Of a stretch of 26,796 bases of DNA, positions 4,479-26,753 are shown piece after piece; the first letter of the stretch is position 1; every line of letters starts with the position of its first letter. A model generated the notes under the pieces. The model was not told where the DNA came from. It worked only from the letters and a program-made list of their open reading frames with translations, and did no database searches. A program made the translations under genes and the position numbers. The stretch is from Nanoarchaeota archaeon. GTDB lineage: Archaea; EX4484-52; LFW-46. The stretch spans positions 1-26,796 of the forward strand of contig JAHILE010000035.1 in assembly GCA_018897155.1 (NCBI GenBank). Reading direction: 5' to 3'.

Positions 4479-4979
4479 CTATTTATGGTATTTCATTCCC
4501 TTCTCAATTGTCAAAGTCCGATAAATCTGCTCAAGAATCAGGATGCGCGCGATTTCATGCGTGAAGATCATTGCAGAGAGCGAAATTGTTTTTTCCGCGC
4601 GTCTCTTTACTTCTTCAGAAAGCCCGTTTGCTCCGCCGATGACGAAAATCATCTCGTTTTGCTTCGCTCCACTCGAAGCTTTCCAACCCAAATCCGTTTG
4701 TGAATGGTTGGAAATTAAGTCATTCCTGCCGCGAATCAGTTGCGCGAAACTTTCTGTTGTGAGTGAAGCGCCTTTTGGGTCAAGCGCAAAGAATTTCTTT
4801 TCCTTGATTCTTGCTAGAAGTGCAACGCCTTCTTTGCGGATGACTTCTTCTACGCGCTCGGATTTGTCTTCTTTTATCTCGGTAACTTCTGTGCGAATAA
4901 ATCTGTTGATGCGCGAAAGATATTCTATTTCCTGCGGTTTGAACATCTTGTTTGAGCCGATTGATAATATAGAGATCAT
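4479..4979 (-). CDS. rlmH: RlmH-like SPOUT rRNA methyltransferase with in-frame insertion
   Basis: A 166-aa SPOUT-class methyltransferase. Bacterial RlmH methylates pseudouridine 1915 of 23S rRNA; the archaeal substrate is inferred to be similar. Family motifs are FVIGGANGL (112-120), the knot helix HEIARILILEQIYR (141-154) and the terminal YHK. Residues 86-107 form an extra segment of about 17-20 residues relative to the bacterial protein as I recall it. The DNA for this segment (4658-4724) is two adjacent hairpins, so it looks like a small palindromic insertion. The ATG overlaps the ligase stop as ATGA (4976-4979), indicating coupled translation in the trm5-lig-rlmH operon. Confidence 0.88.
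   Translation of the reverse strand: MISILSIGSNKMFKPQEIEYLSRINRFIRTEVTEIKEDKSERVEEVIRKEGVALLARIKEKKFFALDPKGASLTTESFAQLIRGRNDLISNHSQTDLGWKASSGAKQNEMIFVIGGANGLSEEVKRRAEKTISLSAMIFTHEIARILILEQIYRTLTIEKGMKYHK
4658..4724. repeat. palindromic insertion inside rlmH
   Basis: GCTTCG (4661-4666) pairs with CGAAGC (4674-4679). TTTCCAACC (4680-4688) pairs with GGTTGGAAA (4706-4714), with a nested CAAA/TTTG (4689-4692 / 4697-4700). The segment encodes residues missing from standard RlmH. Its ends encode similar peptides (NDLI before, NEMI after; 10 of 15 bases equal), as expected for an old target duplication. The plus-strand text CATCT...GCTTCGCT...CGAAGCTTT resembles the copies at 8510-8580 and 13398-13457. 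Confidence 0.6.
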
Positions 4980-9097: not shown

Positions 9098-9152
9098 ATA
9101 TTGCAATAAAAAGCTTGAAAATCGGACATTAGTTTAGATTTTCATGATATTT

Positions 9153-10548: not shown

Positions 10549-10564
10549 ATGTGATTCATATCAT

Positions 10565-10599
10565 GAAAGCTTGAGCATGGGATGTGCTTTCAAGCTTTT
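10565..10599 (+). repeat. hairpin between rpl31e and rps27e
   Basis: AAAGCTTGA (10566-10574) pairs perfectly with TCAAGCTTT (10590-10598), enclosing a partly pairing 15-nt loop. It lies just after the rpl31e stop and is followed by TTC and A-rich sequence. It may be a processing or termination structure. It shares CTTTC...AAGCTTTT with the elements at 8510 and 13398, but too weakly for a firm family call. Confidence 0.5.
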
Positions 10600-12017: not shown

Positions 12018-13574
12018 CTACGTTTTCACAAAAAGGGGGAATTTTTTAACCATTTTAATTATTTTTTCCCTCGCGTTTTTTGCATCAACAGCACCTTTTG
12101 TTTCACGCATCAATTGCCCTATAAGGAAGTTCAGTGATTTTTCTCCGCCGTTTTTGTAGTCTTCAACAGCCTTTGCATTTTTGGCAAGAATTCCGGAAAT
12201 TGTTTTTTCGAGATTTAAAGAGCGGTCTATTTCAGATAGGCCGTGCCTTTTTGCTGCCTCAAGCGGAGGCAGTCTGTCATCAATCATTTTCCAAAGTATG
12301 CGTTCTGCAACATCATCAGAATATTTTCCCGACTCAAACATTTTCAGAAGGTCGATAATCCATTCTTGTTTCAGGCCGGAAGTTTTCCAAGTGATGCTGT
12401 TGTAGTTGAGCGTTTTCATAAGCCTCTCAGATATCCATGCGGCAGCGATTTCTACTTTTACGGTTTTTGCAGCACTCTCGAAAAGGTTTGCAAGGTCAAT
12501 TGACGAAACGATGCTTTCGGCAGTTTTCTCAGCGATTTTATATTGCTTGATCAGGCGTTTCCTCTTCGCATCGGGAAGTTCGGGAATCTGTGAGCTAATG
12601 TTTTTTTTAAATGATTCGGATACCTCAAGCTTAGGAAGATCAGGCTCGAAAATATACCCGTATTCTTCTTCAGTTTCCTTTTTTCTGAGAGCTTTTGTTG
12701 TTCCGGAAACATCATCCCATGCCCTTGTTTCCTGTACGATTTTTCCTCCGCGCGCGACAACATTTTTCTGGCGCATGTATTCAAATGCGAGCGCGCGTTC
12801 AACCTCCTTTGCTCCGGATATGTTTTTGACTTCCACGCGTTCGCCGCCGGCAATTGATATATTTGCATCGGTTTTTATTGATGCCTCAGAAGATGAATCA
12901 TAGACGCCTAGATATTCAAGAACCGTCGCGAGCTTGTTGATGTAGAGGCGCGCCTCTTTAGGCGACTTGAAATCCGGTTCGGTCACTATTTCGATTAAAG
13001 GAATTCCCGAGCGGTTGTAGTCCATAAGAACGTGTTTTCCGTCGCCTCCAAGCCCGCCGACATGCACAAGTTTTGCAGGATCTTCTTCCATATGAATCCT
13101 GCGTATTCTGATTTGTTTTTTGCCGCTTTCGGATTCCATTTCTACGGTCCCATCTTTTGCAAGCGGTATTTCGTATTGTGTTATCTGGAAATTTTTTGCC
13201 ATGTCCGGATAAAAGTATGTCTTTCTTGAGAAGTATGTTTCTTTTGCAATGTCGCATCCAAGCGCAATTGACACTTTTGCTGCTAATTCGAAGGCGCGCC
13301 TGTTTGCATTAGGCTTTGAGCCGGGAAGCCCAAGACATATAGGGCAGGTGATTGTATTTGGAAATGCTTCAGCTTTCATATTATGAAACGCCTTATCCTT
13401 GAGTTTCAAGCTCATCTTGCTTTCGCTTGAAGCTTTTGAACTCTTTGAGTTCAAAATTTTGAAGACTGCTGCTTCAAAATGTATCGGATTCTTGCATCCG
13501 CAGAACATTTTTGTGGTTGAGTTAAGTTGTACGTGCGTTTCAAGGCCAATCTTCACAGGGGTATCAAGACTCAT
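12018..13574 (-). CDS. gatB: Asp/Glu-tRNA amidotransferase subunit B (GatB) with in-frame insertion
   Basis: A 518-aa GatB of the GatCAB amidotransferase, which phosphorylates and amidates Asp-tRNA(Asn) and/or Glu-tRNA(Gln). Signatures include VKIGLETHVQLN, CPICLGLPGSKPNANRRA, SRKTYFYPDMAKNFQITQYEIP, IHMEEDPAKL..DYNRSGIPLIEIVTEPD and a C-terminal YqeY-like tail (NFLIGQLMRETKGAVDA). I start at ATG 13574 (MSLDTP), because the 18 residues before it are not family-like and a TTTAAAAA box A candidate lies at about 13603-13610. Residues 30-67 are extra: standard GatB goes from CxC (25-27) to CPxC (77-80) in about 13 residues, here 49. The extra DNA (13374-13487) is three hairpins. Confidence 0.95.
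   Translation of the reverse strand: MSLDTPVKIGLETHVQLNSTTKMFCGCKNPIHFEAAVFKILNSKSSKASSESKMSLKLKDKAFHNMKAEAFPNTITCPICLGLPGSKPNANRRAFELAAKVSIALGCDIAKETYFSRKTYFYPDMAKNFQITQYEIPLAKDGTVEMESESGKKQIRIRRIHMEEDPAKLVHVGGLGGDGKHVLMDYNRSGIPLIEIVTEPDFKSPKEARLYINKLATVLEYLGVYDSSSEASIKTDANISIAGGERVEVKNISGAKEVERALAFEYMRQKNVVARGGKIVQETRAWDDVSGTTKALRKKETEEEYGYIFEPDLPKLEVSESFKKNISSQIPELPDAKRKRLIKQYKIAEKTAESIVSSIDLANLFESAAKTVKVEIAAAWISERLMKTLNYNSITWKTSGLKQEWIIDLLKMFESGKYSDDVAERILWKMIDDRLPPLEAAKRHGLSEIDRSLNLEKTISGILAKNAKAVEDYKNGGEKSLNFLIGQLMRETKGAVDAKNAREKIIKMVKKFPLFVKT
13398..13487. repeat. palindromic insertion inside gatB
   Basis: Three hairpins follow in series: TTCAAGC/GCTTGAA (13405-13411 / 13425-13431), TTTTGAACTC/GAGTTCAAAA (13434-13443 / 13447-13456, loop TTT) and ATTTTGAAG/CTTCAAAAT (13456-13464 / 13472-13480). 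This DNA accounts for the extra residues of GatB. The first half matches the intergenic copy at 8510-8580. The sequences bordering the extra codons share ATxxAxxxTGAAGCA, a possible worn target duplication. Confidence 0.7.
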
Positions 13575-26160: not shown

Positions 26161-26273
26161 ATTTTTCTTCTAGAAAACCTAAGAATAGGGCAGGGAACGA
26201 ACCTTGCCCTATGCAAAGGATGAGACTTGCTTACTGTTAGGTTTCTTTCCCTTAAAAAGATTTGGTGACTAAA
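26161..26273 (+). promoter_or_regulatory. structured 5' leader of tnpA
   Basis: AAACCTAA (26175-26182) pairs with TTAGGTTT (26237-26244). Inside are ATAGGGCA/TGCCCTAT (26185-26192 / 26205-26212) and a small GCAA/TTGC hairpin (26213-26230), making a three-way junction. A competing hairpin TTTTCT/AGAAAA (26163-26177) overlaps the outer stem. GGTGA follows at about 26265-26269, just before ATG 26274. IS200 is known to limit transposase translation with a 5' leader structure, and this leader may do the same. Confidence 0.55.
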
Positions 26274-26753
26274 ATGAAAATTGACCTGATTAGCGGCAGC
26301 CATGCCGTAGGAGAAGCGAATTACCACCTGCAGTTTACACCTGCATACCGAAAGGGAATTTTTGCGGACGACGCAGTACGAATCCTGACAAGAGATTACC
26401 TCCTTGCATCGGCAAAAAAGCACGGAATAACCATTTCAGCAATGGGATTCGGACCAGATCACTGCCACGTTTTTACAGCAGAGTGCAAAAATTTCAGTGT
26501 TTCAAAAATTGCAAATTTGCTCAAAGGTTTTTCGTCAAGGATGATGAGAAAAAACCATTGGGATTTGTTCAGAAAAGACCTTTACGGCGATAAATTCTGG
26601 TCCGGAGGATATTTTTACAGAACTGTCGGCGCAGTAAATTCAGAAACTGTAAAGCATTATGTTGAACAGTCGCAACAGAAGCATTGGCATAAAACATTAT
26701 CTACAAAGCCGAATTTCGGCGCACAAAGTAAGCTGATTCAGTTTGCGGCGTAA
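26274..26753 (+). CDS. tnpA: IS200/IS605 Y1 HUH transposase TnpA
   Basis: A 159-aa single-strand transposase that cuts and joins the hairpin ends of its element. The HUH metal motif is HCH at residues 63-65 (GPDHCHVFTAE) and the nucleophile is probably Y129 (ETVKHYVEQSQ). Other family marks are the N-terminal YHLQFTPAYRK and LKGFSSRMMRK; the length is typical. ATG 26274 is chosen because GGTGA lies just upstream; GTG 26262 would add four residues. The frame is complete, so the element could be active. Confidence 0.95.
   Translation: MKIDLISGSHAVGEANYHLQFTPAYRKGIFADDAVRILTRDYLLASAKKHGITISAMGFGPDHCHVFTAECKNFSVSKIANLLKGFSSRMMRKNHWDLFRKDLYGDKFWSGGYFYRTVGAVNSETVKHYVEQSQQKHWHKTLSTKPNFGAQSKLIQFAA

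Follow-up and report, generated by a model that had tools for sequence, protein, structure and literature searches.

Palindromic elements inside protein genes

The Rickettsia palindromic elements (RPEs) are units of approximately 105–150 bp with 12-bp terminal inverted repeats, according to the summaries drawn on here (Ogata et al. 2000, 2002; PMC2229807, PMC10969869, PMC3733652). In-frame palindromic insertion is cited in summary for Wolbachia as well. For archaea, Suyama, Lathe and Bork (2005) reported protein genes of Methanocaldococcus jannaschii into which palindromic repeats are fused, as outlined in PMC2229807 and PMC2996958. In REP-rich bacteria, intragenic REPs are found in genes for DNA repair, uvrA and uvrB among them (PMC3733652). 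In both the IS200/IS605 and the REP systems the target is picked by a short guide at the foot of the hairpin, and only the IS200-type subclass has been found in archaea (PMC6006769).

Here we describe an insertion in the gatB gene of an archaeon, studied within a stretch of 26,796 nucleotides (the window), together with the repeat family to which it belongs. The insert very probably represents a decayed member of a family of mobile, non-coding double-hairpin DNA elements, which abound in this archaeon and in its order relatives. That we are dealing with a mobile palindromic family that is tolerated in frame is, in our judgement, nearly certain.

Like the RPEs, the archaeal element is a short palindrome that occurs both between genes and in frame in unrelated, often essential genes, where the extra segment is presumably tolerated. 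Nine filled and empty gene pairs display in-frame insertion of this kind, absent from the orthologues, and in this sense the likeness to RPEs put forward in the preliminary description holds. Compared by description, the two differ in that the archaeal inserts are 42–108 nt long, consist of repeated X-Y hairpins (see below) and end at T-tracts, and a unit of approximately 105–150 bp with terminal inverted repeats was not found. The double-hairpin elements of fungal and algal mitochondrial DNA also have two hairpins with variable stems and are mobile without a known enzyme. These differ in being organellar, and we liken them by description. The coding palindromes of M. jannaschii are the nearest published precedent, likened here by their cited description; on that description, the earlier remark that no such family was known in archaea does not stand (PMC2229807, PMC2996958).

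The resemblance to REPs, BIMEs and REPtrons (TnpA_REP) lies in imperfect, high-copy hairpins of 20–40 nt that have a short conserved foot and form arrays (PMC3733652, PMC6006769), and high-copy short imperfect hairpins are indeed what we find. However, REP feet are GTAG or CGTC, whereas the foot of the archaeal element is AAAAG...ATTTT, and REPs commonly go with a TnpA_REP gene, whereas no such gene is linked to the archaeal element and none of the Y1 genes of this genome is flanked by its copies. Palindromes in the mitochondrial genes of Nematomorpha (PMC6649704) also lie in coding sequence, with both arms encoding conserved residues; unlike these, the archaeal palindrome is an insertion that is missing from the sister. 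No account of this family was found in the literature searched, subscription papers being outside its scope. The sequence family and the double-hairpin architecture look new, while the kind of phenomenon is known.

The gatB insertion and its counterparts in other genes

The two host genes in the window and their insertions are listed here; G001 is a genome of the same genus.

12018-13574, minus strand: gatB host gene, 518 aa, ATG at 13574, with matches to Pfam GatB_N and GatB_Yqey and to NCBIfam
13383-13481, minus strand: in-frame insertion in gatB, 99 nt or 33 codons, residues 32-64, from protein and DNA alignment with the empty G001 gene
4479-4979, minus strand: rlmH, the second host gene, with PDB sequence matches to RlmH
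4650-4715, minus strand: in-frame insertion in rlmH, 66 nt or 22 codons, with X at 4680-4714 and Y class I at 4645-4682; empty in G001

In the alignment, the empty site of G001 gatB reads CCGGTT followed by AATTTGAAG, which gives the exact insertion point, and the G001 protein is 82% identical over residues 65-509. Matches to GatB in order relatives stop near residue 34 and resume near residue 65, and hardly any DNA lies between these two points. The segment is absent from G001, and it is not seen in the GatB matches of any of the approximately 30 order relatives. This was the comparison that the preliminary description had named as able to refute an insertion, and it revealed a missing segment, not an old one encoded by different DNA. 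Solved GatB structures align only either side, with residues up to approximately 30 and from approximately 69, therefore the segment sits between the CxC and CPxC pairs, and the long spacing between these pairs is real.

Judged by these sequence comparisons, the gatB insertion is real and postdates the divergence from G001. The empty G001 site, together with homologous copies elsewhere in the genome, bears out the proposal that a palindromic element entered an essential gene in frame. The element had been placed at 13374-13487; the insertion is there, but it aligns as 99 nt, thus the natural unit is slightly shorter, with four hairpins. The same genome encodes both this bacterial-type GatB and an archaeal GatE-like protein (G000:C48:26382-27137).

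Filled and empty pairs with G001 were found in nine conserved genes, where the inserts of 42–108 nt are all multiples of three: gatB (99 nt), rlmH (66), uvrC (108), metG (54), topA (42), ksgA (105) and genes for a ferredoxin (57), an ATPase (42) and a glycosyltransferase (90). Coding copies were sought in approximately 21% of the genome plus the hit loci, and they were found via open frames, so the preservation of frame is partly selected for by the search. These copies occur in both orientations and in several reading phases. The insert junctions lie at short runs of A or T, whereas a run of four or more A/T touches only 11.8% of coding positions. G001 has insertions of its own, e.g. in one protein gene whose product we take to be PHP-like. 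Fresh insertions between near-identical strains were not seen, and G001 is only approximately 75–80% identical in DNA, so that the insertion events may be old or recent.

A further insertion lies near the C-terminus of uvrA, where the alignment with G001 ends before crossing it. Both uvrA and uvrC (L109), which are nucleotide-excision-repair genes, carry insertions in this small sample, a parallel to the repair-gene preference of bacterial intragenic REPs (PMC3733652).

Architecture, folding and distribution of the repeat

The repeat unit is a double hairpin, 5'-TTTT/X-AAAA-G-Y-A-TTTT/. X has the form TTTT-stem-loop-stem-AAAA, with a loop that is either short (often GAA) or approximately 15–17 nt long, like ATTCACCAACGTCTTTG. 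Y comes in two classes. Class I has the form AAAAGCTTCGAGC..GCGAGATGATTTT, with the variants GCCT/AGGA, GCCG/CGGA and GCCA/TGGA; two neighbouring positions are kept as G.A (26 of 31) and A.G (30 of 31), and the pairs flanking them covary. Class II has a perfect stem of variable sequence, whose positions 10-11 are paired in 37–38 of 40 distinct copies versus 18–20 in shuffles, with none of 2000 shuffles as high. Among 46 copies, X stands 5' of Y in 32 and 3' of it in 7, where the shuffle means are 0.8 and 0.5. The X stem that forms the left end is freely variable, and a fixed terminal inverted repeat is absent. Some of the displayed copies from family f7 have no evident X beside them.

The gatB insert runs X, X, Y class I, Y class II, and its right end is decayed.

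13457-13479, minus strand: first X hairpin, TTTTGAAG-CAGCAGT-CTTCAAAA, starting at the target T-tract
13434-13456, minus strand: second X hairpin, TTTTGAACTC-AAA-GAGTTCAAAA, with a perfect 10-bp stem, stronger than the other three
13408-13437, minus strand: Y class I hairpin, AAAAGCTTCAAGCGAAAGCAAGATGA, with a mismatched-purine stem and a decayed right end; similar to C15:13161-13198 (E 9.4e-7)
13381-13411, minus strand: Y class II hairpin, GCTT-GAAAC..GTTTC-ATAA, its right end decayed from ATGATTTT

Three hairpins with stems of 7, 10 and 9 bp had been described previously. All three are present, as inverted repeats at 13374-13380/13382-13388 (7 bp), 13402-13411/13425-13434 (10 nt, 90%) and 13456-13464/13472-13480 (9 bp), but there are four in all and the strongest, at 13434-13456, had been missed. 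An intact relative of the class II hairpin is found at G000:C16:8775-8808. Folded as single-stranded DNA, 13374-13487 reaches -20.7 kcal/mol versus -9.9 for dinucleotide shuffles (z = -5.0, 0 of 200 shuffles), whereas as RNA it is moderate against such shuffles (z = -2.2); the DNA fold thus stands out much more than the RNA fold.

X hairpins overlap the starts of genes near the centre of the loci L054, L052, L053, L068, L070 and L072. Their stem contains AAAAATG and their loop a Shine–Dalgarno-like GGAG or GGTGA, a layout that looks as though the element supplied a ribosome-binding site. The gene-start copies raised the suspicion that X stems are inverted copies of the target. We dropped this as a general rule, as the metG and topA stems are unlike their flanks and the X loops are semi-conserved.

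A DNA search with the gatB insert found its best further copy in the genome at E 9.4e-7. The pattern AAAAGCTT-N6-36-ATGATTTT has 47 exact copies in this genome, none in a reversed control and 31 in G001. Nine of the 11 family-f7 genomes hold 6 to 29 exact copies (24–29 apiece in G023, G012, G017 and G031) and the remaining two hold 3–4. Copies of the pattern are almost missing from the other archaea sampled. Within the order, two families are rich in hits and hardly any occur elsewhere: f1 and f7 have the element, f2 and f3 lack it. The covariance-model search proposed in the preliminary description did recover family copies: at E <= 0.01, with only 150 candidates scored per genome and a few sites common to both models, two models matched at least 84 and at least 27 sites in the genome itself and at least 79 and at least 41 in G001. 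Class I copies are also present in named archaeal MAG records, e.g. Candidatus Aenigmatarchaeota RS_3_1 and isolate LFW-46, and the order is probably aenigmatarchaeal. Viral contigs contain no exact match to the class I pattern, which speaks against carriage by viruses.

Two probable copies of the second class lie elsewhere in the window. For both, the bare pattern is not above chance and the support is stem pairing (7 bp at 9108-9148).

9108-9148, plus strand: probable Y class II copy, AAAAGCTT-GAAAATC..GATTTTC-ATGAT, 7-bp stem, just upstream of the open reading frame at 9144
10560-10596, minus strand: probable Y class II copy, AGCTT-GAAAGC..GCTTTC-ATGAT, between genes

The same array of elements stands at or near the end of three contigs, C46 (L035 1-120), C23 (L036 1500-1591) and C2 (L038 1-140), which suggests that long arrays probably break the assembly. 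In G004, a genome of family f4, a Y-like hairpin is repeated in tandem at approximately position 1500 of L186 and reads as the repeated peptide KNHLTFVRSFLAFYNADTCA.

Mobility and competing explanations

By analogy with the guided joining of IS200/IS605 and REP systems, we tentatively suggest single-strand joining guided by T-tracts as a possible route. Copies would travel as single-stranded DNA in folded form and be joined on the 3' side of a T-tract. The central AAAA could pair with the left or the right TTTT, closing either hairpin, and would act as a guide that chooses the T-tract target. Inside genes, selection would keep only stop-free copies of a length that is a multiple of three, and the surviving coding copies would be translated as extra loops. 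No mobilising enzyme was found, and most of the relatives that are rich in the element lack Y1 transposases. That the element represents a new class of single-strand mobile DNA, i.e. a double hairpin of 40–60 nt with an A-tract self-guide and an enzyme outside the Y1 family, is an unlikely extension. One of the Y1 genes of this genome lies in the window.

26262-26753, plus strand: Y1 (IS200-like) transposase gene at the end of the contig, preceded by a structured stretch and followed directly by a GC-rich hairpin

The main rival to guided single-strand joining is a spread that needs no enzyme, in which template switching by the polymerase or microhomology-mediated repair copies the hairpin arrays into A/T tracts and the stems stay paired through hairpin-templated correction. 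It would account for the A/T-tract microhomology at both insert ends and for the absence of transposase linkage, and covarying stems are compatible with hairpin-templated correction too. However, the constant X-then-Y polarity, the conserved G.A mismatches and the constant feet suggest recognition by a protein, and we hold enzyme-free spread to be rather unlikely. Mobilisation by one of the genome's own Y1 HUH transposases, as in an IS200/IS605-like or REP/RAYT system, would fit the short guide-like sequence at the 5' foot of a hairpin and the joining 3' of a short target, which match the described logic (PMC6006769), and the genome has three Y1 genes (at the window end, L073 and L075). Against this, those genes have no flanking copies, and their flanks show no ends that match the element as would be expected for an IS200/IS605-derived MITE, though the assembly may miss a contig; the ends of the Y1 gene at 26262-26753 are unlike the gatB-type elements. 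Moreover, nine of the 11 listed f7 genomes, which are incomplete, have no Y1 match, among them the four with 24–29 copies. A Y1 mobiliser is thus improbable.

A functional RNA structure kept for regulation (a terminator, an mRNA-stability or a 5' leader element) is suggested by the many intergenic copies, some of which overlap gene starts with a Shine–Dalgarno-like loop. Copies in essential coding regions in either orientation speak against it, as do the less unusual RNA fold and the lack of any Rfam match in the window at gathering thresholds, and as a general explanation it seems quite improbable; single intergenic copies may nevertheless have been co-opted for regulation. The repeat is short and non-coding with an apparent T-tract duplication, which could recall a MITE moved by a DDE transposase, or a bulge-helix-bulge intron removed from the mRNA. 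But the freely varying X stem leaves no fixed terminal inverted repeat, splicing would make the frame-preserving insert lengths unnecessary, and a 3-nt/4-bp/3-nt bulge-helix-bulge is not visible in Y, hence either is very improbable. Finally, that the segment is an old GatB protein loop with DNA that is palindromic by chance can be given next to no probability because of the empty sites. We found no support for such a loop, which is missing from same-genus GatB and not seen in order relatives, and the same DNA family occurs in unrelated genes and between genes.

In summary, a mobile double-hairpin element would be the first such archaeal family outside M. jannaschii, as far as the literature searched shows. 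A DPANN-type genome of 1.4 Mb carries approximately 100 or more of these hairpins, with clean filled and empty pairs in core genes such as gatB, topA, ksgA, metG, uvrC and rlmH. The polarity, covarying stems and T-tract junctions yield testable predictions on mobilisation in cells with very small genomes, in which a tiny non-coding mobile DNA would be able to add segments to essential proteins.
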